Part shown: one piece after another, positions 4,543 to 48,832 of the stretch
How the letters are laid out: every line of letters begins with the position of its first letter
How positions within the stretch are numbered: the stretch's first letter is position 1
Assembly (NCBI GenBank): GCA_030425385.1
Contig: JAUIAH010000013.1
Span: 62,001 to 126,000 of the forward strand
Length of the DNA: 64,000 bases
DNA from: Verrucomicrobiia bacterium
Lineage (GTDB): Bacteria > Verrucomicrobiota > Verrucomicrobiia > Verrucomicrobiales > DEV007
Direction: 5' to 3'
Translations under genes and position numbers: made by a program
The notes under the pieces: generated by a model
What the model was told of the DNA's origin: nothing
Databases searched by the model: none
The model's input: only the letters and a program-made list of their open reading frames with translations

Positions 4543-6576
4543 TTATTCGATAATCAGATCGTCGATGTACCAGCCCGCGCCGTCGTCGGCATCGATGTCG
4601 TCACTGAGGAAGCGGAATTCGATGCGGATCTTCTGGCCAACGACATTGGCACTCGTGTCGCCAAAGCGTAAGAGGCTGAGGGAAAGCTCCTCCCAATCGG
4701 TACTGAGGCCGTTGAAGACTTCGCTGAAGCCGAGCACTTCGTCGCCAGCTTCGTTGAGGATGCGAATCTGACCACCCTCTTGGTCGGACGCTTCAATGTA
4801 ATGCCAGAGTTTGAGCGATCCACGCTCGACGTTGGTGAGGTCAATGACAGGACTCGTGAGGGTGAGATTCCCGAGCGTTCCATAGTTGGCGGCGAGGTTC
4901 GTCCCGTAGACGTTGTCGCCAGAATGGGCGGCGGCAGGACCAACGGTTGAAGGGGTGCCAAGTTCCCATTGAGTATTCCCGCTATCGGGAAACGGATCGT
5001 CAAGAGTGGCGAGGGTCCATCCCTCAGCACCAGATTCGAAGTCTTCGGAGAAGATGTTGCCCAAACCGATCCTAGCGAACGTCTGGCCTTGCGCGGGATC
5101 GATGGCAAACGTGGCCGTCGTGACGCCATCATCGCTACCAACGATGCTATTGGCCACGGTCTGCCAGGAATCGGAGGTGAGATCGCTGGACGTTTGGATT
5201 TGATAGAATTTCCCCGTCTCGGATTCCCAGGAGAGGGAGGCTTCTTCGTTAGAGGTGCGCTGGATGTCCGTCACGACAATGGGCTTGGGTGCGAAGTCGA
5301 GGATGTAGCGACCGTACCCGTAGGCCCCACTGTGCCAGAGCAGCTCGGCTTGGCCAGGGCGCATGCCAGGCAGAACATTGATGTTCACTTTGCCCAAGGT
5401 GCCGTGCCAGAGAGCGGTGCCGCCGACGAGTTCGTCGGCCTCTGTGATGTCGATCTTGTGGAGCCCCACCAGTTCGGCCAAGCCTTCACCCGTTTCGACG
5501 TCGACCGCCTCTGGATCGTAGAACTGATCGTGAACGGCGATCCAACCTGGAGCCGGGGGATCCACGCCAACGGCTGCGCTATTCCAACTCGGAGTGCTGT
5601 AGGAAACCACGTAGGGGAAGTCCGGATGCACGTCGGCATCCGTGACGAAACTAGCGGTGTAGCCAATCTCTTCATCGATCTGAATGCGATACTCGCTGCC
5701 GCCGAAGGGCTCATCCTTGGCACGATCCCTGACATTGCGCAACAGGCTGGTGTCTTTTCCATTGCTACCACCAGGGTAGAGCGAGCCATACATGTATTCC
5801 TGTGTGGAGGTGTCTCCAGCGGGCGCGGGCACGATGCTGCTGCCGCCGCCTTTGAAACCAGTCACGCCGTCTTCCGTAGCCGTGAAGGTAAGGCCATCAG
5901 TGGTGACGAGTTCGCGGTAGCCTTGGCTAGGACGCCAGGTCTTACCGCCAGCGATGAGGACCGTGTCGGCCCCTGAGCCACGAGCGCGAAGCGTTTCGTA
6001 ACGCCAGCTGTTCCAGTTCTCGCTGCCATCATTCTCTTGGGTGTAGGCGATGGTGGGGGCTTCGAATCCGCCGTTCCCGTCGGGGGCATAGCGGGCGATG
6101 CGATTGCGGTAGTTCACATAGATCACGCCGGAGTCGTCGACGGCGAATGTGAGGTAGTATTCCGTGGTGGAGCCACCCGCAGCGGTGAACGCAGGATCGA
6201 CCTCAATGGGTGTGTGCCCGACGTTGAGCGCCACGCCCATGGGGGCGCCAGTGGTAGGATCGATCCAGATGAGAGAGCGGTCAGGATACTGCGCCGCAAG
6301 ATCGGCATCATGGTTAGGATCCGTTTCATTGATGCCATTCTCGCGAATGCCGAGGAGGAGACGATCGGCGTCGTAGCGCTCGAGCCCGCCGTAGGAATCC
6401 ATGGTCCATGTCCCGTCCCAGGTTTCCAAATCGGGGTTCTGATCCGTCTGCAACTTGAGAATGGGGAGGGGATTCTCTTTGTTGGCAAGGTGTTCGAATG
6501 CCACTTCGACATCAGCCGAGGCGAGCCCGGCCGAGGCAGCAAGTGAGAGCACAGTGCGTTGGAAGGTTGTCTTCAT
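4543..6576 (-). CDS. Large secreted protein with C-terminal beta-sandwich (MAM/immune-inhibitor-A-like)
   Basis: The 677-residue protein has a signal peptide (residues 1-21, cleavage near ASA/DV). The long first part has many Gly/Asp/Tyr-rich strands and is probably a beta-propeller ('DRSLIWIDPTTGAPMGVAL', 'GVIYVNYRNRIARYAPDGNG'). Residues of about 430-500 resemble the fibronectin-like domain often found in verrucomicrobial secreted proteins ('GKFYQIQTSSDL'). The C-terminal 150 residues look like a jelly-roll domain ending in 'GWYIDDLIIE', typical of MAM-like or immune-inhibitor-A C-terminal domains. A role in binding extracellular substrate is inferred. It is the first gene of a three-gene minus-strand set. 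No protease or glycosidase motif was recognised. Confidence 0.65.
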   Translation of the reverse strand: MKTTFQRTVLSLAASAGLASADVEVAFEHLANKENPLPILKLQTDQNPDLETWDGTWTMDSYGGLERYDADRLLLGIRENGINETDPNHDADLAAQYPDRSLIWIDPTTGAPMGVALNVGHTPIEVDPAFTAAGGSTTEYYLTFAVDDSGVIYVNYRNRIARYAPDGNGGFEAPTIAYTQENDGSENWNSWRYETLRARGSGADTVLIAGGKTWRPSQGYRELVTTDGLTFTATEDGVTGFKGGGSSIVPAPAGDTSTQEYMYGSLYPGGSNGKDTSLLRNVRDRAKDEPFGGSEYRIQIDEEIGYTASFVTDADVHPDFPYVVSYSTPSWNSAAVGVDPPAPGWIAVHDQFYDPEAVDVETGEGLAELVGLHKIDITEADELVGGTALWHGTLGKVNINVLPGMRPGQAELLWHSGAYGYGRYILDFAPKPIVVTDIQRTSNEEASLSWESETGKFYQIQTSSDLTSDSWQTVANSIVGSDDGVTTATFAIDPAQGQTFARIGLGNIFSEDFESGAEGWTLATLDDPFPDSGNTQWELGTPSTVGPAAAHSGDNVYGTNLAANYGTLGNLTLTSPVIDLTNVERGSLKLWHYIEASDQEGGQIRILNEAGDEVLGFSEVFNGLSTDWEELSLSLLRFGDTSANVVGQKIRIEFRFLSDDIDADDGAGWYIDDLIIE

Positions 6577-15172: not shown

Positions 15173-15442
15173 ATGGCTAGATCCCTTAAAAAAGGTCCAT
15201 TCGTCAACTACAAGCTGTTGGCAAAGGTCGATAAGCAGACTGAGGAGAACAATAAGAAGCCGATCAAGACTTGGTCGCGCAACAGTCTCATCATCCCTGA
15301 TTTCGTCGGACACACGTTCCTCGTCCACAACGGCAAGGCGTTCACGAGCGTCTACGTGACGGAGAACATGGTCGGCCACAAATTGGGCGAATTCTCTCCC
15401 ACCCGTAAGTTCTTGGGCCACGGTGGCCAAGGCAAGAAGTAA
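15173..15442 (+). CDS. rpsS: 30S ribosomal protein S19
   Basis: The 89-residue protein begins [10 protein letters not shown] and contains '[21 protein letters not shown]' and '[12 protein letters not shown]', all diagnostic of S19 in the 30S head. It is followed after 26 bases not by rplV, as in other S10 operons, but by an unrelated exported protein gene. Confidence 0.97.
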
Positions 15443-15468: not shown

Positions 15469-16272
15469 ATGACGATCTCTCACACAGCATGCTGGCTAGC
15501 GGGCGCTTTTGCGGCGATCCCGATGGCAGGGCTGTGTCTCGCGCAGCAAGAGGTGGCCGAAGACAAGGTGCCTCACCTGCAGATGATCGAGGAGTTGGAG
15601 AAAGATTTGGATGCGGCCATGGTCGAGAACTTGGATTTGCAGTCCAAGGTCAAGAACCTCAGCAGCGCCAACGGCGTGCTTGCCGAGAGCCTATCCGAGT
15701 CCAAGCGGGAATTGGAAGCTTTACGGGAGAGTTACCAAGAGGCGCTCGTGCGCCTGGAGTTGCTCAGTGGTGTGTTAGAGCGCGAGGACGAATCGTTGGA
15801 GGATCGCCTTTTAAAGGCGGCCTCCGATCTGCGGCTCGCGGAGGAAGAGAAGGAGCAGACGACCCAAGCCTTGGTGGAGTTGATGCAAGCGTCCGAAGCC
15901 TTCGCGGCAGCTGTTCCTGAGACCGATGAACAATCGGAGATACGAGCGGCGCTGAAAGCAGCCCTGACCGCCTCCGAAGAGGCTCTCGGGTTATTCGCCG
16001 ATGATTCCCAATTGGAAGAGCGGACTCTCGATAAAGCCCGCGTCATCACGGTGAACAAAGAATACAATTTGGTCTTGGTCGACGTTGGACGCGATCAAGG
16101 ATTGCGAGTGGGCACGCCAGTAAGCTTCCATCGCAAGGATCGCATCATTGGTTCCGCGCTTGTCATCAGTGTTCGAGCTGATTTCTCCGGTGCCATCCTC
16201 CTCGAACTGACAGACCCCAACGATCAAATCATGGTGGACGATCGCATGCGTATCGCCCCCGAAGGTGTGTAG
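15469..16272 (+). CDS. Exported coiled-coil protein with MreC-like beta domain, inserted in the S10 operon
   Basis: The 267-residue protein has an N-terminal signal peptide (residues 1-25, hydrophobic to AGLCLA, then Gln-Gln-Glu). Residues about 35-145 form a long Glu/Leu-rich coiled coil ('LEKDLDAAMVENLDLQSKVKNL'). Residues about 190-265 form a small beta domain ('ARVITVNKEYNLVLVDVGRDQGLRVGTPVSF', 'IGSALVISVRADFSGAILLEL'), resembling the C-terminal barrel of MreC and of other coiled-coil envelope proteins. It lies in the same direction between rpsS (26-base gap) and rplV (22-base gap), so it must be co-transcribed with ribosomal proteins. Function unknown; a cell-envelope or shape role tied to growth rate is a guess. 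It does not replace any ribosomal protein. Confidence 0.75.
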   Translation: MTISHTACWLAGAFAAIPMAGLCLAQQEVAEDKVPHLQMIEELEKDLDAAMVENLDLQSKVKNLSSANGVLAESLSESKRELEALRESYQEALVRLELLSGVLEREDESLEDRLLKAASDLRLAEEEKEQTTQALVELMQASEAFAAAVPETDEQSEIRAALKAALTASEEALGLFADDSQLEERTLDKARVITVNKEYNLVLVDVGRDQGLRVGTPVSFHRKDRIIGSALVISVRADFSGAILLELTDPNDQIMVDDRMRIAPEGV

Positions 16273-36236: not shown

Positions 36237-37658
36237 TCATTCCGTCGTCCAGGGGGCTCGCGCGTTCTCGGTGATCTCGCGATCCAGGGCTTCCATCCGG
36301 GTTTGGAGCCTGGCAACGATTTCTGGGTGTTGCTCGGCGAGGTTCGTTTGCTCGCCGATGTCCTCACTGAGATCGAACAGCAAGATCTGTGGCGGTTTGG
36401 CTTCATTGTTAGGCGCATTCTGATTTCTCCGAGGCCGCGGTTTCTTGATGAGAAGCTTCCAGTTGCCTTGGCGGAGCCCTTCTAGATGTCCGTTAGACGT
36501 GTAGTGGATAAACTCTGTGCGAGGTGATTCTTCCGTGGTTCCCTTCCAAAGATCGGAGACATCAAGGCCGTCGACTTTCTTGTCTTCGGGCAATGGGGTT
36601 TCTGTGAGGGCAGCGATGGTGGGGAGGATATCGATGGTGCCAGTGAGGGCGTTGCTACTGGTTCCGGCAGGGATGCCAGGACCACGGACAAGACAGGGCA
36701 CGCGCTGGCCGCCTTCAAACGTCGTTCCCTTGCCATTGCGGAGCGGGCCTGCGGAACCTCCGTGATGCCTGAAAGGAAGCCATGGACCATTGTCTGTGGT
36801 GTAGATGACATACGTGTTGTCCGTGAGTTTGAGGTCATCAAGGGTGTCTAACAAGCGCCCTACCTCAGTGTCGATGTGCTCGATGGTGTTGATGTAAGCA
36901 TTCTTGGGATCGGGGTCGCGCACATCATCTGGCACGTAGAGGGGTATGTGAGGCATCGAATGCGGGAGGTAGACGAAGAACGGATCATCCTGGTGTTCCT
37001 TGACGAAATCGATCGCCTTCTGAGTGCATCGCCGGGTGATCGTGCGCTGGTCCACCGGCCATTCCACCATCTTCTCATCCTCGAACAGTGGCGTCTTCCA
37101 TTTGATTAGGGTCGATTCAGGATCTTTCCAGAGGATGTCCATCCCGGCATGGCCGCCCTTCGGCTTGCCCTTGTTGTCCGGGTGATTCATGTCGTTCGAG
37201 TAGGGGATGCCGAAGTAGGTATCGAAACCATTCGCCGTTGGGAGTACTTCGGGATGATGCCCTAGATGCCATTTCCCAAAGCACCCCGTGGCATATCCCT
37301 GCGCTTTCAAATGGTCGGCAATGGTGTGCTCTTCAGGGTGGAGGCCTTTCTTGGAGGCCGGGAAGAGCACATGTTGATGCATGCCGACTCGCTTGGGATA
37401 GCAGGCCGTTAGGAGGGCAGCGCGCGATGGCGTGCAGACCGGGGACGCGACCATGAAGCTCGTGAACTTTCGGCCTTCTGTTGCCAATCGATCAATGTGA
37501 GGCGTCTTGATGGTTTCGGATCCAAAGCAACTGAGGTCGCCATACCCTTGGTCGTCCGTGAAGATGAGGATGAAGTTAGGCTTGGCGGCCAAAGTCTGGC
37601 TGACCAGAGCTGATAGGAGGATGAATCCGGACAATAGCGGTGACAGGCGAGCGATCAT
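36237..37658 (-). CDS. Exported sulfatase (arylsulfatase A-like)
   Basis: The 473-residue enzyme has a signal peptide (1-25), the metal-binding 'KPNFILIFTDDQGYGDLSCFG' (Asp35, Asp36) and the canonical motif C75-T-P-S-R79 followed by AALLTA, where most family members have LxTG. 'TTDNGPW' and 'HHGGSAGPLRNGKGTTFEGGQRVPC' are the usual substrate-site landmarks of arylsulfatase A-type enzymes. It belongs to the S1 sulfatase type, acting on sulfated glycans. It heads a two-sulfatase operon, divergent from the multidomain protein gene at 37832. Confidence 0.9.
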   Translation of the reverse strand: MIARLSPLLSGFILLSALVSQTLAAKPNFILIFTDDQGYGDLSCFGSETIKTPHIDRLATEGRKFTSFMVASPVCTPSRAALLTACYPKRVGMHQHVLFPASKKGLHPEEHTIADHLKAQGYATGCFGKWHLGHHPEVLPTANGFDTYFGIPYSNDMNHPDNKGKPKGGHAGMDILWKDPESTLIKWKTPLFEDEKMVEWPVDQRTITRRCTQKAIDFVKEHQDDPFFVYLPHSMPHIPLYVPDDVRDPDPKNAYINTIEHIDTEVGRLLDTLDDLKLTDNTYVIYTTDNGPWLPFRHHGGSAGPLRNGKGTTFEGGQRVPCLVRGPGIPAGTSSNALTGTIDILPTIAALTETPLPEDKKVDGLDVSDLWKGTTEESPRTEFIHYTSNGHLEGLRQGNWKLLIKKPRPRRNQNAPNNEAKPPQILLFDLSEDIGEQTNLAEQHPEIVARLQTRMEALDREITENARAPWTTE

Positions 37659-37831
37659 GGGATGAGCCTATAGCAAACCAGGGAGCGCGTTGGCGAGCCA
37701 ATCCGCCAGGATCTGAGGAAAGTGGGGGTAGAAGGTGTGTGCGAGCGTTCCTGATGCGCATAAACGTCAGTTTCATCGATTTCGGCTATCCACTTGCCCC
37801 GGTCAATCATAGTCTGAACCATCTTCCGCCC

Positions 37832-40800
37832 ATGAATGCCCTCCGAATTCTCTCGATTCTCGCTCTCGTGACCCTCGTGACTCTCGTCTCCTCGAGCATG
37901 GCAGCCGCGCCACGTGTCGTCATTCTCCATGGGGAGAGCGAATACGGTTCGGAACGAACCATGCCCGTGCTGGCGGATTGGATCCGGTCAAGCAGAGACT
38001 ATGACGTTTCCGTGCACACCTCGCCTGCGGGCACTCAAGATCTTCCCAATCTGGATGTGTTAGAATCGACCGACCTGTTAGTGCTTTGCTTGCGGTTCCG
38101 TGAGGCGACGCCTGAACAGATGGCTCAATTGAAGGCTTACCTTGATGAAGGGAAGCCGGCGATTGCTTTTCGAACGACCAGCCATGCGTTTCTCGAGGAT
38201 AAGGGCTGGTTCCCGCCGATCTTTGGCGGTCACTACAAAGGGCATGCGGGAAACCGTGAGGGCACTCAGGTGGTGGTCCCCACGTCAGCGCTGGGGCATC
38301 CCATTCTGAAGGGCGTGGCGCCGCGATTCTCTCCTGGATACGGCGGTGCCTATTTCGCACAGCCGTTAGCGGATTTCGCCCGGCCGCTGTTGTTAGGCAA
38401 GACAGCAGACCTCCCAGCGGAACCCGTCGCTTGGACAGCGAGTCCTCTCCCGAATCAACGGCTCTTCTACACGTCGCTGGGGGCGGAGGATAACTTTGAG
38501 AATGAGAACTTTCGCAAACTGATCTTGAATGCGTGTCAGTGGTGTCTTGGTGAGGGTTCAGGAGACGTAAGAGCTGAGTCAACAGAGGTGCCTGCTCCCC
38601 CTCAGCACGACGCCGTCTTGGAAGAAACGGTGCTCTTTGGCGGCGAGGCGGATCGCTCCCAATGGCGTCACTGGGATCCCGGCATGCCTCCTCGCGCGAT
38701 TGAGATCGATCGCCGGGCTGACACGACTTCTGGTGGTCCCACCTACGAGGCCCCTCGGTGGCCCGTGGACGAGAAGACCGTCATCGCTCGGCCTGGATAT
38801 GGAGACATCCTCACACGAGACGTCTTCGGAGATTCGGTCTATCACATCGACTTCTTGATTCCCAGGGAACCACGTCACCTGAGAGGAGCGTTTCGGGGCA
38901 ATAGTGGCGTCTATGTTGATGGGAAGTGGGAAATACAAATCATCGATTCCTACGGGCAGGATCGCGTGGATGCTCAACGAACCTGTGGAGCCATCTATGG
39001 CGTGGCCGCGCCCTTAGTGAATGCGTGTGGTGAGCCTGGGACCTGGCAGAATCTCGAAATCGCCGTCAAACACATCGACGATCATGCTGCCCATCTATCA
39101 GTTTGGCTGAATGGTGTGCAGATACATGATCGTGTGAGAGTGGAGGGCCGCACGCTTCACGGATTCGCTGTGGAAGAGGCGAGCGATGCCGAGGATGGGC
39201 CGCCTCCAGTGCCTCTCTTCACCTCGACGGAAGCTGAGGGCAAGCGGTGCGCCATGGATACGGATTTCACGGCGATGGTGCGCTTTCGCACAGAGGACGA
39301 GGGGCCGTTGTTTGGGAAAGTGAGTGAGGATGGCGAGCACCGGGAGAATGACAAAGTGCTCTTCATCGACGATGGTCGCTTACATTATGACATTGGCTAT
39401 GTCGGCGTCATTGATGCAGATCGAGAGGTGGCGGATGGCGATTGGCATACCGTCGCCCTGCGGCAGCAAGGGAAGCGAGTGGAACTCTATCTTGATGGAG
39501 AGAAGCTGCTTGAGGACGCCTTCACCTCTCCTGACAATGCCGTGAGTGTCCTTCGCGTAGGAGCGGGGGCGGACAACTTTCCTGACGGCGGTGCGCGTCG
39601 TTGGGAAGGCGATATCGAGAGCTTCCACTTCTATAACGAGGCGCTCTCTGATCAAGATCTTGAACTGGCAGCAGGAAGCGAGCCCATCGAAAGAGTGAAA
39701 CCTGTCCTCCATTGGCAAGTCGATGAGGATGAGACTAGCGAAGTCGCCAAGGCAGAGGAGGAGGAGTGGGTGGGCTTTCTTGACTTTGGCCGCGCAGGCG
39801 CGGGTCCGTTACGCCTGCAGGCGGACTCCAGTGAGGTGCGCTTCGCTAATGTCACGGTGCGACCTCTCGCAGAGGTCGATCACGCCAGCATCATCAAGGC
39901 GTGGGACGAGGCCGCCTTTCAACGGGGGGAAAAGATCTACGCCGGCATCTGTTTCGCCTGTCACGGGAATTTGCAGCAGAAGGGGTCGCTCCCCACGTCT
40001 CGCCCTTTCTGGGAAGAGCCCTTTAAGAATGGCAAAGACCCCCATAGTCTCTATCTCACGCTGAAGAATGGCTATGAACAAATGCCTCCCCAGCCTTGGC
40101 TCACGCCTTCCGCGGCGTATGATGTCATTCACTACATCCGTGAGGCGTTTGTCAGGCCTAACAATGCCGCGGAATACACGGAGATTACGGATGATTATCT
40201 AACGAGCTTGCCCAAAGGCATGGGTACGGAAGGTAAGCTGACCCAGGAACAGATCGATTATGCCCGTGGGCCCAAGTATCTTCGCATGAACTTCGGCCCC
40301 ATGCTTGACTGGACGTTTGAGGTGGCTCCAGATAACATAGCCTACAAAGGGATCGCCATTCGGCTAGACCAGGGGCCTGGTGGCGTGAGTAAAGGGCGCC
40401 ACTGGATGGTTTATGATCACGACACGATGAGGGTGGCAGCCGCCTGGTCGGGCAGTCAGTTTGTCGACTGGAAAGGAATCGCCTTTGATCAGTCGCACAA
40501 TTCCCACACGAGCATCGTCGGCGACAAGACGTTGGTGAATCCGGTAGGGCCAGGCTGGGCCCATCCAGAAACGGGTTCGTGGGAGGATCCTCGTTTCCTG
40601 GGCCGCGATGGCAAACCCTACGGCCCCTTGCCGCGCGATTGGGTGCAGTTCAAGGGGCAATATGTCCACGGTCATCAAGTCGTTCTCCGCTACACTGTTG
40701 GCGACGCAGACGTGCTGGAAATGCCAAGCCTGGTGCAAGGTGGTGAGCAGCCCGTCTTCGCGCGCACCTTGAATATCGGCAAATCAAGTCATGATCTCCG

Positions 40801-42400
40801 TTTGCGCGTGTCTCCGGCCGCAGTCACCGCACAAGTGCTAGGAGGTGAGGCTTCGCTGGACATCATCGAGGGCTATCAGGTCATGACCGTGCTCGCGCAA
40901 GATACCCCCATCAGAGTCAATGTGCTTTCGACGACCGCTCCGGCAGAGAGTCTCACCATTGCCGCTCTGTTAGCGGCTGAGCCAGAAGATCTCATGCCCT
41001 ACACGGAAGGCGGCCCAAGGCAGTGGACGGAAACGGTCGTGACTCAGGGGAAACGTGGCCATGACGGCGATCCCTTCGCCATCGATGAGATCACTTGCCC
41101 GGCCGAGAATCCCTATCACAGCTGGATGCGTATCGGAGGATTTGATTTCCTGCCAGGGGGCAATCGAGCGGCAGTCGCCACGTGGTTAGGCGATGTGTGG
41201 TTGGTCGATGGGATCGATGGTGCCTTTGGCCAGCACACGTGGAAACGTATTTGCACCGGCTTATTTCAGCCGTTAGGCGTGAAGGTAGTCGATGGCACCA
41301 TCTATGTGACTTGTCGGGATCAGTTGGCCAGGCTCCACGACCTCAACGGTGATGAAGAGATCGACTACGTGGAGTGCTTTAATAACGACCACCAAGTCAC
41401 CGAGCACTTCCATGAGTTCGCCATGGGACTGCAGACGGATGACGAGGGCAATTTCTACTACGCCAAGTCCGCTAGGCATGCGCTGAAAGCGCTCGTCCCG
41501 CATCACGGCACGCTCTTGCGAGTGCGTAAAGATGGGTCCAGGACCGATATTCTCGCAACAGGCTTTCGCGCCGCCAACGGTGTTTGTCTCAACCCCGACG
41601 GGACTTACATTGTCACCGATCAAGAGGGCCACTGGAACCCCAAGAACCGGATCAACTACGTCAGAGAGGGCGGATTCTATGGCAACATGTATGGCTACCA
41701 CGAGGTCACTGATCCTAGCGATGAGGCGATGGAACAGCCGCTCTGTTGGATCACAAACGCCTTTGATCGCAGTCCTGGTGAACTGCTTTGGGTTCCAATG
41801 GATGCGAATTGGGGGGCTCTCAATGGCTCCCTGCTCAATCTAAGCTACGGTCGCGGCCGCGTCTTTGTCGTGCCGCACGAGAAGCTGCCCGACGGCCAGG
41901 CACAAGGAGGCATGGTGAGTCTGGGACTCGATTTCCCTACGGGAATCATGCGCGGCCGCTTTCATCCTGACAATGGCCAACTTTACACCACGGGTATGTT
42001 TGCCTGGGCTGGGAGTAAGCACCAGGACGGTGGCTTCTACCGCGTACGGGCCACGGGTGCAGCCCCCAATCTTCCCATCGCGTTGAAGGCGCGCCCGTCG
42101 GGAATTGAGTTAGGGTTCACTGATCCGTTGGATAAGGCGTCCGGTAGCGATGTGAGCAATTATCAGATCAAGGTCTGGGGCCTGAGACGGACCAAGAACT
42201 ACGGCTCGCGGCACTATGATGAGCGCACCTTAGAAATCACCAATGCGGACATTTCCGATGATGGAAAGACAGTCTTGCTCACTGTCCCGGAGATCGCCCC
42301 GACCTGGTGCATGGAGATCAAGGTGAATGTCAGAGACGTTTCTGGCGCACCCTTAGAACGCGTCATCCACAACACCATTCATCAGCTAGGCGACTCGTGA
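37832..42400 (+). CDS. Giant exported multidomain protein: ThuA, DUF1080, LamG, cytochrome c, DUF6797, propeller
   Basis: The 1522-residue protein starts at ATG 37832, giving signal peptide MNALRILSILALVTLVTLVSS. Domains in order: ThuA-like glutamine-amidotransferase fold (about 27-250, 'RVVILHGESEYGSERTMPVLADWI'), DUF1080/3-keto-disaccharide-hydrolase beta-sandwich (about 330-415, 'FRGNSGVYVDGKWEIQIIDSYG'), LamG-type sandwich (about 470-620), a monoheme cytochrome c with C707-F-A-C-H711, a DUF6797 domain (about 790-1040), and a C-terminal propeller of the membrane-bound dehydrogenase/sorbosone-dehydrogenase kind (about 1090-1420, 'GGFDFLPGGNRAAVATWLGDVWLVDG'). Single polypeptides of this make-up are found in Verrucomicrobiota and planctomycetes (recall); ThuA and DUF1080 point to 3-keto-sugar metabolism. 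Confidence 0.85.
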   Translation: MNALRILSILALVTLVTLVSSSMAAAPRVVILHGESEYGSERTMPVLADWIRSSRDYDVSVHTSPAGTQDLPNLDVLESTDLLVLCLRFREATPEQMAQLKAYLDEGKPAIAFRTTSHAFLEDKGWFPPIFGGHYKGHAGNREGTQVVVPTSALGHPILKGVAPRFSPGYGGAYFAQPLADFARPLLLGKTADLPAEPVAWTASPLPNQRLFYTSLGAEDNFENENFRKLILNACQWCLGEGSGDVRAESTEVPAPPQHDAVLEETVLFGGEADRSQWRHWDPGMPPRAIEIDRRADTTSGGPTYEAPRWPVDEKTVIARPGYGDILTRDVFGDSVYHIDFLIPREPRHLRGAFRGNSGVYVDGKWEIQIIDSYGQDRVDAQRTCGAIYGVAAPLVNACGEPGTWQNLEIAVKHIDDHAAHLSVWLNGVQIHDRVRVEGRTLHGFAVEEASDAEDGPPPVPLFTSTEAEGKRCAMDTDFTAMVRFRTEDEGPLFGKVSEDGEHRENDKVLFIDDGRLHYDIGYVGVIDADREVADGDWHTVALRQQGKRVELYLDGEKLLEDAFTSPDNAVSVLRVGAGADNFPDGGARRWEGDIESFHFYNEALSDQDLELAAGSEPIERVKPVLHWQVDEDETSEVAKAEEEEWVGFLDFGRAGAGPLRLQADSSEVRFANVTVRPLAEVDHASIIKAWDEAAFQRGEKIYAGICFACHGNLQQKGSLPTSRPFWEEPFKNGKDPHSLYLTLKNGYEQMPPQPWLTPSAAYDVIHYIREAFVRPNNAAEYTEITDDYLTSLPKGMGTEGKLTQEQIDYARGPKYLRMNFGPMLDWTFEVAPDNIAYKGIAIRLDQGPGGVSKGRHWMVYDHDTMRVAAAWSGSQFVDWKGIAFDQSHNSHTSIVGDKTLVNPVGPGWAHPETGSWEDPRFLGRDGKPYGPLPRDWVQFKGQYVHGHQVVLRYTVGDADVLEMPSLVQGGEQPVFARTLNIGKSSHDLRLRVSPAAVTAQVLGGEASLDIIEGYQVMTVLAQDTPIRVNVLSTTAPAESLTIAALLAAEPEDLMPYTEGGPRQWTETVVTQGKRGHDGDPFAIDEITCPAENPYHSWMRIGGFDFLPGGNRAAVATWLGDVWLVDGIDGAFGQHTWKRICTGLFQPLGVKVVDGTIYVTCRDQLARLHDLNGDEEIDYVECFNNDHQVTEHFHEFAMGLQTDDEGNFYYAKSARHALKALVPHHGTLLRVRKDGSRTDILATGFRAANGVCLNPDGTYIVTDQEGHWNPKNRINYVREGGFYGNMYGYHEVTDPSDEAMEQPLCWITNAFDRSPGELLWVPMDANWGALNGSLLNLSYGRGRVFVVPHEKLPDGQAQGGMVSLGLDFPTGIMRGRFHPDNGQLYTTGMFAWAGSKHQDGGFYRVRATGAAPNLPIALKARPSGIELGFTDPLDKASGSDVSNYQIKVWGLRRTKNYGSRHYDERTLEITNADISDDGKTVLLTVPEIAPTWCMEIKVNVRDVSGAPLERVIHNTIHQLGDS

Positions 42401-46628: not shown

Positions 46629-46711
46629 GCGTGGTGGCGGTGCACGGTCGACTGCCTAGCCACGACGATTTCCTGTAAGGTTTCCTTCACCGGGAGGCTA
46701 TCTCTTAGGTG

Positions 46712-48832
46712 ATGAAGACTTCATGGAATTCTTGGATGCCAACGTGTGCCATCGTGCTGGGAACAGCGCTCTGGTTGAATGGATGGGCGAACGCAGCATT
46801 TCCCGACCCGGGAGATTGGAAGCCGGTGTGGCCGAATCCGACGCCGAACTATGTCAACGCGGTGGCTTATGGAGACGGTCTATGGGTGGCGGTGGGCGAC
46901 TTCGGCTACATCGGGACGTCCGAGGATGGTCTGACGTGGACTCAGCAGGAATCTTCTGCCCCGACAGATTGGCCGGTGGATCTGGTCACGGGCTACGAGT
47001 TGACCTCGGTCGTCTACGGGAGCGATCGCTGGATCGTCGCGGGTGAAGATGGGCGGCTATTCAGTTCGACCGATGCAATCCATTGGTCTCACATTCTCAC
47101 CGACGAGGCCGCCTACTGGGAGAAGGTAGTGCATCATGAGGGGCGCTGGATGGTAACGGGAACTTCTCAATCAGTGCTAGTGTCTGCGGACGGCGTGCGC
47201 TGGCGAAACCAGGCGATTGGGGAAAGTGATTGGATATGGGCATCGAGTTGGGGGAATGGTCTTTGGGTGGTGGTCGATGCCACTGGGAAAGTATTTGCCT
47301 CGACAGATATGAGCGCGTGGGAGGTGCGGGGAACCATCGTTGCGGATGGCATCATTGACGACATTCACTATGCCGAGGGAAGATGGATGGCGGTGGGCGA
47401 GTATGGGGAGGTGCTCACATCAGTGGATCTTGCCGAGTGGGACCAGGTGTGGACAGCACCCCGCCAGAAGTTATTCGAAGAGGGGCCGTCTTTTCCAATT
47501 CAACTCTACTCGGTGGCGCATGCGGAGGGCCGCTGGGTCATTGCTGGCGGGGTCGATCCGTATGTGGATGTGGGATTCATCGCTACATCAGTAGATGGGA
47601 TGGCATGGGAATCCGTGAGCATGGAGGGGAGCCACCTGTTTGTGATCGATGTTGCCTATGGAAATGGCCGCTGGGTGGCGGCTAGTGCGGGCCTCGGGGG
47701 ATTGCCTTACTCTGACAATGGTGTGCAATGGAAGACTCACCCGCAGTACGATATCGAGGCGGCTCCCTATCTCTACGATCTTGAGATTCATGATGGCCTA
47801 TACATTGCGAGTGGTCAGAATGGTGTGATTCTGCAATCCTCAGATGGCCAGTCGTGGAGCAGCCGAACGATTGATGAGCGGAGGAATCCGGATTGGCTCA
47901 CGGCAGTACACTATTCCGAACGGCTGGGGCATTGGCTACTGGCGGGAGATTTCGGTCGCGTGTGGCTTTCTCCTGACGGAAATACATGGGAAGCCGTGGA
48001 CTCGGGCATGCGCGGCATTGATGGCCTGGCTGAAAGCTCGGATCAGTTCATCGCAGTGGGACGTGGATGGGATCTTGCCTCCTCCGTGGATGGGCGCCAA
48101 TGGGAGGTCCGTGAACATCCTAACACTGGTAAGCCTGAAGAAAGGCTAGAAGCTATCACTCATGCGAACGGCGTGTGGGTGGCCGTGGGCGGGGAAGGCA
48201 CCATCCTTTATTCGAATGATGAGGGCGCCACCTGGAGCAAGGTGCTCACAGGGAGCGACCAAGCGTTGCAGGCGGTCCACCATGCGCATGGGCGCTGGGT
48301 GACAGCTGGCGAGGAAGGCGACGTCTTCTGGTCTGACAATTTGACGAACTGGACGCGGGGAACCATTCCCATCGATGTGAACAGCGAAATACCGTTCTTT
48401 CGCCACGTCACCACGATGGGTTCGCGATGGTTCCTGACGGGGTATCCTGCAGGACGTGTCTACACTTCAGAGAATGGCGAGGAGTGGGAGCAGCAGGCAC
48501 CCTTCGCCTTTCCTGAAAGGGGCGGGATTCAACACTTCCATGTCCACGGAAGCCGACTCTTCGCGGTGGGACAGACGCCCTTTGGCGGGGCGCTCATCAT
48601 GACCGCGTCCCAGGCGACGGATCCTCCGTTGCTGTCGATTGAACCCTCTCCGAGCGGCAATCTCATGGTCAAATGGCCGCACGACCTTGGTCCTGAAGCG
48701 CTTGAGGTGAGCACGGATCTCGAGAGCTTCACGACGGTGACTCAAGGCATCAGCATTCTAGGTGATCGGGGCGGCTATGAGCACCACTTTCGTCGAGAAA
48801 AGCCTAACAAATACTATCGACTCAAGAAGTAG
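46712..48832 (+). CDS. Secreted BNR/Ycf48-like beta-propeller protein
   Basis: The 706-residue protein has a signal peptide (about 1-28, ending GWANA). Most of the chain is repeats of about 50 residues with 'W-x-A-V/T-G-x-x-G-x-x-x-x-S-x-D-G/x-x-x-W' logic, e.g. 'YGDGLWVAVGDFGYIGTSEDGLTW', 'AEGRWMAVGEYGEVLTSVD' and 'ANGVWVAVGGEGTILYSNDEGATW'. They match Asp-box/Ycf48-type propeller blades. The C-terminal 70 residues form the 'STDLESFTTV...KYYRLKK' domain common at the ends of verrucomicrobial secreted proteins (recall). Function unknown. ATG 46712 is used rather than GTG 46709. Confidence 0.7.
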   Translation: MKTSWNSWMPTCAIVLGTALWLNGWANAAFPDPGDWKPVWPNPTPNYVNAVAYGDGLWVAVGDFGYIGTSEDGLTWTQQESSAPTDWPVDLVTGYELTSVVYGSDRWIVAGEDGRLFSSTDAIHWSHILTDEAAYWEKVVHHEGRWMVTGTSQSVLVSADGVRWRNQAIGESDWIWASSWGNGLWVVVDATGKVFASTDMSAWEVRGTIVADGIIDDIHYAEGRWMAVGEYGEVLTSVDLAEWDQVWTAPRQKLFEEGPSFPIQLYSVAHAEGRWVIAGGVDPYVDVGFIATSVDGMAWESVSMEGSHLFVIDVAYGNGRWVAASAGLGGLPYSDNGVQWKTHPQYDIEAAPYLYDLEIHDGLYIASGQNGVILQSSDGQSWSSRTIDERRNPDWLTAVHYSERLGHWLLAGDFGRVWLSPDGNTWEAVDSGMRGIDGLAESSDQFIAVGRGWDLASSVDGRQWEVREHPNTGKPEERLEAITHANGVWVAVGGEGTILYSNDEGATWSKVLTGSDQALQAVHHAHGRWVTAGEEGDVFWSDNLTNWTRGTIPIDVNSEIPFFRHVTTMGSRWFLTGYPAGRVYTSENGEEWEQQAPFAFPERGGIQHFHVHGSRLFAVGQTPFGGALIMTASQATDPPLLSIEPSPSGNLMVKWPHDLGPEALEVSTDLESFTTVTQGISILGDRGGYEHHFRREKPNKYYRLKK

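Follow-up and report, generated by a model that had tools for sequence, protein, structure and literature searches.

The rpsS-X-rplV locus and its predicted product

The window, the whole stretch of 64,000 nucleotides that was analysed, comes from a Verrucomicrobiia bacterium with a genome size of 8.0 Mb. Between about 12.3 and 19.6 kb the gene order is rpsJ, rplC, rplD, rplW, rplB, rpsS, X, rplV, rpsC and rplP, followed by a short ORF at the place of rpmC and then by more genes of the S10/spc series. The order of genes in the S10 operon is among the most conserved in bacteria, and X is the sole extra gene within this S10 stretch of the window. In the ORF list of the window it is a 267-codon gene with an ATG start at 15469-16272 on the + strand. 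Its neighbours rpsS (ribosomal protein S19; 15173..15442, +; TIGR01050, E 2.8e-40) and rplV (ribosomal protein L22; 16295..16642, +; TIGR01044, E 3e-35) were identified by profile; the remaining operon genes were named from the sequence and the standard order. The preliminary description of this DNA had placed X in the same direction as, and closely spaced between, rpsS and rplV, and so it lies: all three genes share one strand, with gaps of 26 nt from rpsS and 22 nt from rplV, comparable to the rplB-rpsS (26 nt) and rplV-rpsC (14 nt) junctions of the same operon. A consensus scan of the + strand, which is weak evidence, detected neither a promoter-like site (11-20 kb) nor a terminator-like hairpin (13.0-20.0 kb). 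Elsewhere in the window, two long ORFs at 46709-48832 (+, 707 aa) and 4543-6576 (-, 677 aa) had no Pfam match at E 1e-5, and a 1586-aa protein at 37640-42400 (+) carries ThuA, 3-keto-disaccharide hydrolase, laminin-G-like and cytochrome c domains together with DUF6797.

X is predicted to be an exported or membrane-anchored coiled-coil and beta-barrel protein. The N-terminus (about residues 1-26; 15469..15546, +) resembles a signal peptide, a weak one in the window, with a hydrophobic core from about residue 13 and no preceding Lys or Arg. Across the family a hydrophobic segment is found in 57 of 58 N-termini and a positive n-region in 47 of 58. The signal peptide proposed earlier is thus better founded on the family than on the window's own N-terminus, and X is probably exported. 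A lipoprotein was rejected, as visual inspection of the window protein showed no proper lipobox (...MAGLC). Nor does X look like a ribosomal protein: ribosomal proteins are small and basic and carry no export signal, whereas X has 267 aa, an acidic pI of 4.45 and a hydrophobic N-terminal segment.

In the AlphaFold2 model the helices span residues 8-24, 34-103, 110-147 and 154-173, and a single barrel is formed by six strands within residues 190-262. Both the coiled coil and the one C-terminal beta domain of the preliminary description therefore appear in the model, the long helices or predicted coiled coil at residues 34-173 (15568..15987, +) and the six-stranded beta-barrel at residues 187-263 (16027..16257, +). 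The mean pLDDT is 80 and that of the barrel about 90; the low pTM of the whole model, 0.36, makes the relative placement of the parts unreliable. The barrel is the part present in every form of X, and its conserved residues are G207, G211, G215, P217, R222, D234, R236, G257 and D258.

Foldseek gave no match to the model under E 0.001. The best matches were the N-terminal barrels of F1/V-ATPases (1.7e-3); FlgT (3w1e) ranked fifth, with E 2.8e-3 and an rmsd of 8.7 across 129 columns, and Listeria MreC (2j5u) twelfth, with E 5.7e-3. VIA-align scored F1-ATPase barrels at Z 10-11 over about 68 residues, which ties with the Z of 10.5 over 73 residues for 8z5n chain 0, taken as an LPHT-ring protein from its title. 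The search for solved relatives by sequence returned coiled-coil noise only. The barrels of the FlgT C-domain, the F1 N-domain and adaptor proteins share a common topology with no discernible sequence homology (PMC4446572, review). The modelled fold of X would be this common small barrel, so the fold itself shows no function. As far as the profile searches indicate, neither Pfam nor NCBIfam covers the X family.

Conservation and history of X

Same-place orthologues of X were found in 56 of the 57 genomes of the order, at 58 loci, the sole miss being an 83% complete draft. When X, rpsS, rplB, rplV, rpsC and rplP were placed, X stood immediately 5' of rplV at 58 of 58 loci, and the order rpsS-X-rplV was found in all 55 loci whose contig includes rpsS, with median gaps of 33 nt (rpsS-X) and 24 nt (X-rplV). 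For the most diverged loci, the placement of X used its ORF and the whole-genome match instead of tblastn. Two genomes (G003 and G033) hold two different S10 loci each, both with X, which is likely contamination. A scan of genome contigs located X in named Verrucomicrobiales loci, including a MAG titled Akkermansia muciniphila and one Akkermansiaceae; the gut bacterium Akkermansia is apparently among the carriers of X before rplV. The Akkermansia-like genomes, so called for their size and kinship, are 2.2-3.5 Mb in size and several are closed.

The dN/dS of X is about 0.1, with values of 0.03-0.16 in most close pairs and 0.35 in one very close pair with few changes, which shows purifying selection. 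A chance ORF is ruled out by the conservation together with the dN/dS. Within a genus X retains 48-53% identity, as against about 90% for its ribosomal neighbours.

A search profile built from 42 X proteins matched 214 of the 286 genomes of the class at E 0.001, the weakest of these matches being paralogues. The rpsS-rplV junction was then measured with a fused S19-L22 query in 61 genomes, mostly one per family. Where the gap is long, full-length X lies inside it in most families. A short form of 105-130 aa, consisting of the signal peptide and the beta domain alone without the coiled coil, occurs in nine genomes of eight families and belongs to an Opitutales-like clade. The remaining genomes read have a gap of about 3-150 nt and no X, with the exception of one (G101; L127, about 553-1104) whose 552-nt gap holds no recognisable X; a six-frame comparison of this gap for a decayed X gave no match. 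Outside the class, seven Kiritimatiellae-like genomes hold an X of 172-321 aa in the rpsS-rplV gap. The insertion first noticed in a single genome thus recurs in other Verrucomicrobiota, throughout the order, in most sampled families of the class and in families of the Kiritimatiellae-like group.

In many Lentisphaeria-like genomes rpsS and rplV are found at separate places. In 16 of 23 such split-operon genomes a homologue of X lies 12-101 nt upstream of rplV, and in the other 7 of 23 there is no X before rplV. The retention of X directly before rplV in 16 broken operons indicates that the link between X and rplV outlived the operon, and that the constant partner of X is the downstream rplV and not rpsS. 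The S10 break in these genomes falls exactly after rpsS (L183, L185, L187, L266-L285; G333, G330, G354 and 20 further genomes).

The homology of the different forms was assessed by profile. Small test sets without filters gave E values of 7e-14 to 2e-8 for the short forms, 4e-26 to 8e-13 for the Kiritimatiellae-like forms, and 9e-14 and 1e-9 for two split forms; further split forms were matched by an order-level profile at 6e-17 to 5e-5. The hhalign probability among short, long and split forms was 97-99.7%. By these comparisons, the short, long and split forms of X are homologous.

The history was followed on a ribosomal-protein tree of 80 genomes (fragments of S19, L22, L2 and S3), made by a quick method and with many weak branches. 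The tree separates the class from the other group, and X is found on both sides. The state of X requires 12 changes on this tree as compared with 33 in shuffles. The short form is restricted to one supported clade of 11, and the genomes lacking X fall mainly into another supported clade (16 sampled families), with further cases at scattered tips, a reduced genome of 0.9 Mb being one of these. Methylacidiphilum-like genomes and part of the Kiritimatiellae/Lentisphaeria-like group are likewise without X. The reduced genome (G072; L137) has an rpsS-rplV gap of 148 nt, and its 2.5 Mb congener (G131; L142) keeps X. On the simplest reading of these sequence distributions, there was one ancestral insertion before rplV with phylum-wide ancestry and several losses; the coiled coil would have been lost once and the operon broken 5' of X. 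Repeated gain of X at one site is less likely, and a recent or local insertion is ruled out by the phylum-wide occurrence. The absence from several lineages indicates that X is not universally needed. The survey covered the Verrucomicrobiota.

Relocation of X in lineages that lack it was considered and rejected: when 36 genomes, including a few with X, were searched, most of what was found belonged to a separate related family and not to X. These non-operonic paralogues have a transmembrane anchor, a long coiled coil and the same beta-barrel (L221, L222, L229, L234, L235, L239; L213, L215). In some genomes the paralogue adjoins a gene resembling ribonuclease Y, and tandem copies sometimes occur (L215).

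Relation of X to MreC

The preliminary description had called the beta domain of X MreC-like. The architectural side of this likeness stands: as in MreC (PF04085), a membrane-proximal N-terminus is followed by a coiled coil and a C-terminal beta domain, with a predicted envelope location. In sequence the likeness is weak. X scored 12.2 bits against PF04085, where the cut-off is 28, and the 25 Pfam families that matched most members of the X protein set do not include PF04085. A profile-profile comparison of X with real MreC, proposed in the preliminary description as a check, went against it, with an hhalign probability of 29% over 56 columns. A few X members match MreC weakly in NCBIfam (E 0.0012-0.013). 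X has one beta-barrel in its model as compared with the two of MreC, does not lie beside mreB, and is structurally matched by FlgT ahead of MreC.

In the source genome a canonical MreC (E 4.6e-30) is encoded beside mreB on contig C8, the two profile matches being 418 nt apart. MreC was detected in 21 of 29 genomes tested; the eight without it are all Akkermansia-like, and all keep X. No PF04085 match was found in these eight (G036, G043, G047, G049, G052, G055, G102, G106), seven of which have a strong MreB match, and at one of their loci (L211) no MreC-like ORF follows mreB. All 15 tested X-bearing genomes outside the Akkermansia-like group have both MreB and MreC, so X adds to MreBCD and is not a copy of a part of it. 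Membership of X in the MreC family is ruled out by profile, gene place and domain count. At the level of sequence and gene content, X is neither MreC nor tied to MreC.

Possible function of X and comparison with known systems

Why, then, would a predicted envelope protein be fixed before rplV? The position suggests a joint supply for envelope growth and ribosome production. In the explanation that we favour, which in our judgement has about an even chance of being right, X is an envelope factor that forms oligomers and is expressed together with the ribosomal proteins, its supply following growth rate. As an envelope protein X would date back to the ancestor of the Verrucomicrobiota, and it would be translated from the transcript of the S10 operon. 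The signal peptide would carry it across the inner membrane, a transmembrane anchor serving instead in some Kiritimatiellae-like forms. The coiled coil probably assembles X into an elongated oligomer that presents the small six-stranded beta-barrel in the periplasm, in a manner resembling MreC, FlgT or periplasmic adaptor proteins, and X may thereby scaffold or tether envelope-building machinery. With X placed before rplV, we infer that its supply tracks ribosomal-protein synthesis, which would keep envelope growth in step with biomass growth. In favour of this explanation stand the conserved place of X, its retention with rplV in split operons, the homology of its forms, the small number of changes on the tree, the purifying selection, the signal-like N-termini and acidic pI, the confidently modelled barrel, a codon usage like that of the ribosomal genes, and the presence of MreB and MreC beside X in the 15 genomes outside the Akkermansia-like group. 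Several observations qualify this picture. X is missing from several lineages and the pTM of its model is low. The faster divergence of X than of its ribosomal neighbours is unexpected under tight functional coupling to the ribosome, and the absence of the coiled coil from the Opitutales-like short form means that an oligomeric stalk is not essential everywhere. Rapid divergence and multiple losses together argue for a useful but replaceable part.

The same position could also reflect expression level only. X would then be an abundant structural envelope protein that uses the strong S10 promoter, and its pairing with ribosomal genes would have no regulatory meaning apart from high output. We regard this as possible, with appreciably less confidence than the co-expressed factor. 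Abundant exported structural proteins need strong expression, and fast sequence divergence fits a structural role. In codon usage X ranks 23rd among the 63 ORFs of the window, inside the range of the ribosomal genes, but codon bias is weak in the window and the measure separates genes poorly. The retention of X with rplV after the operon split suggests more than promoter access, although the split unit may itself be strongly expressed. It speaks likewise against a neutral relic, an ancient insertion caught inside an essential operon and without any function connected to its position, as do the purifying selection and the one place kept across class-level groups; the clean short junctions left after losses indicate that removal was possible. 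A relic would accord with the several independent losses and with the existence of related non-operonic paralogues, but we consider it quite improbable.

A diverged MreC paralogue acting in the elongasome, perhaps as a replacement for MreC in Akkermansia, is unlikely on balance. The order of parts, the weak MreC profile matches, the 2j5u structural match and the Akkermansia-like genomes with X and MreB but no recognised MreC all point toward it; the score far under the cut-off, the low hhalign probability, the single barrel, the equal or better matches of FlgT and F1 barrels, and the true MreC in 15 other X-bearing genomes point away. We also considered an action in cis. As X is translated midway along the S10 transcript, its signal peptide might bring the polysome to the membrane; alternatively, the export state of X might act back on how rplV and the genes that follow are translated. 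Such an action would fit two observations: the signal peptide and small barrel are kept whether or not a coiled coil is present, and X keeps its place before rplV. If true, envelope export capacity would gate ribosomal-protein synthesis, but we rate the idea as very improbable.

No earlier account of this insertion was found in the open-licence PMC literature. As a conserved, selected and uncharacterised protein of predicted envelope location, X is a synteny marker for Verrucomicrobiota and gives a tangible way into the question of how surface growth is matched to ribosome synthesis in cells. A genetically tractable organism for such work is Verrucomicrobium spinosum, for which targeted deletion and saturating transposon data exist, the latter giving 644 essential genes and 100 essential proteins of unknown function (PMC12283558).

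Among known systems, the C-terminal domain of FlgT (PF16538; 3w1e) has a six-stranded barrel comparable to the one modelled in X. Of 42 X proteins, 8 matched PF16538 weakly, with E 0.0089 at best, and the window protein did not match at E 0.1. The rest of FlgT is unmatched in X. FlgT is a component of the flagellar H ring of Vibrio, whereas X has a predicted coiled coil and lies in a ribosomal operon. Periplasmic adaptor proteins (MacA, MexA), like the model of X, combine coiled-coil helices with the barrel topology common to FlgT-C and the F1-ATPase N-domain, and Foldseek matched X weakly to MacA. In contrast with the adaptors, the X model has no lipoyl-like domain, the stretch from helix 154-173 to barrel strand 190-196 being free of strands, and no transporter gene adjoins X. 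In gene organisation, the nearest parallels are the non-ribosomal passengers of ribosomal operons, secY, adk, map and rpoA, which resemble X in being fixed inside a ribosomal-protein operon. Whereas these passengers are near-universal and their products cytoplasmic or inner-membrane, X is a phylum-level gene for a predicted envelope protein, seated in the S10 part.
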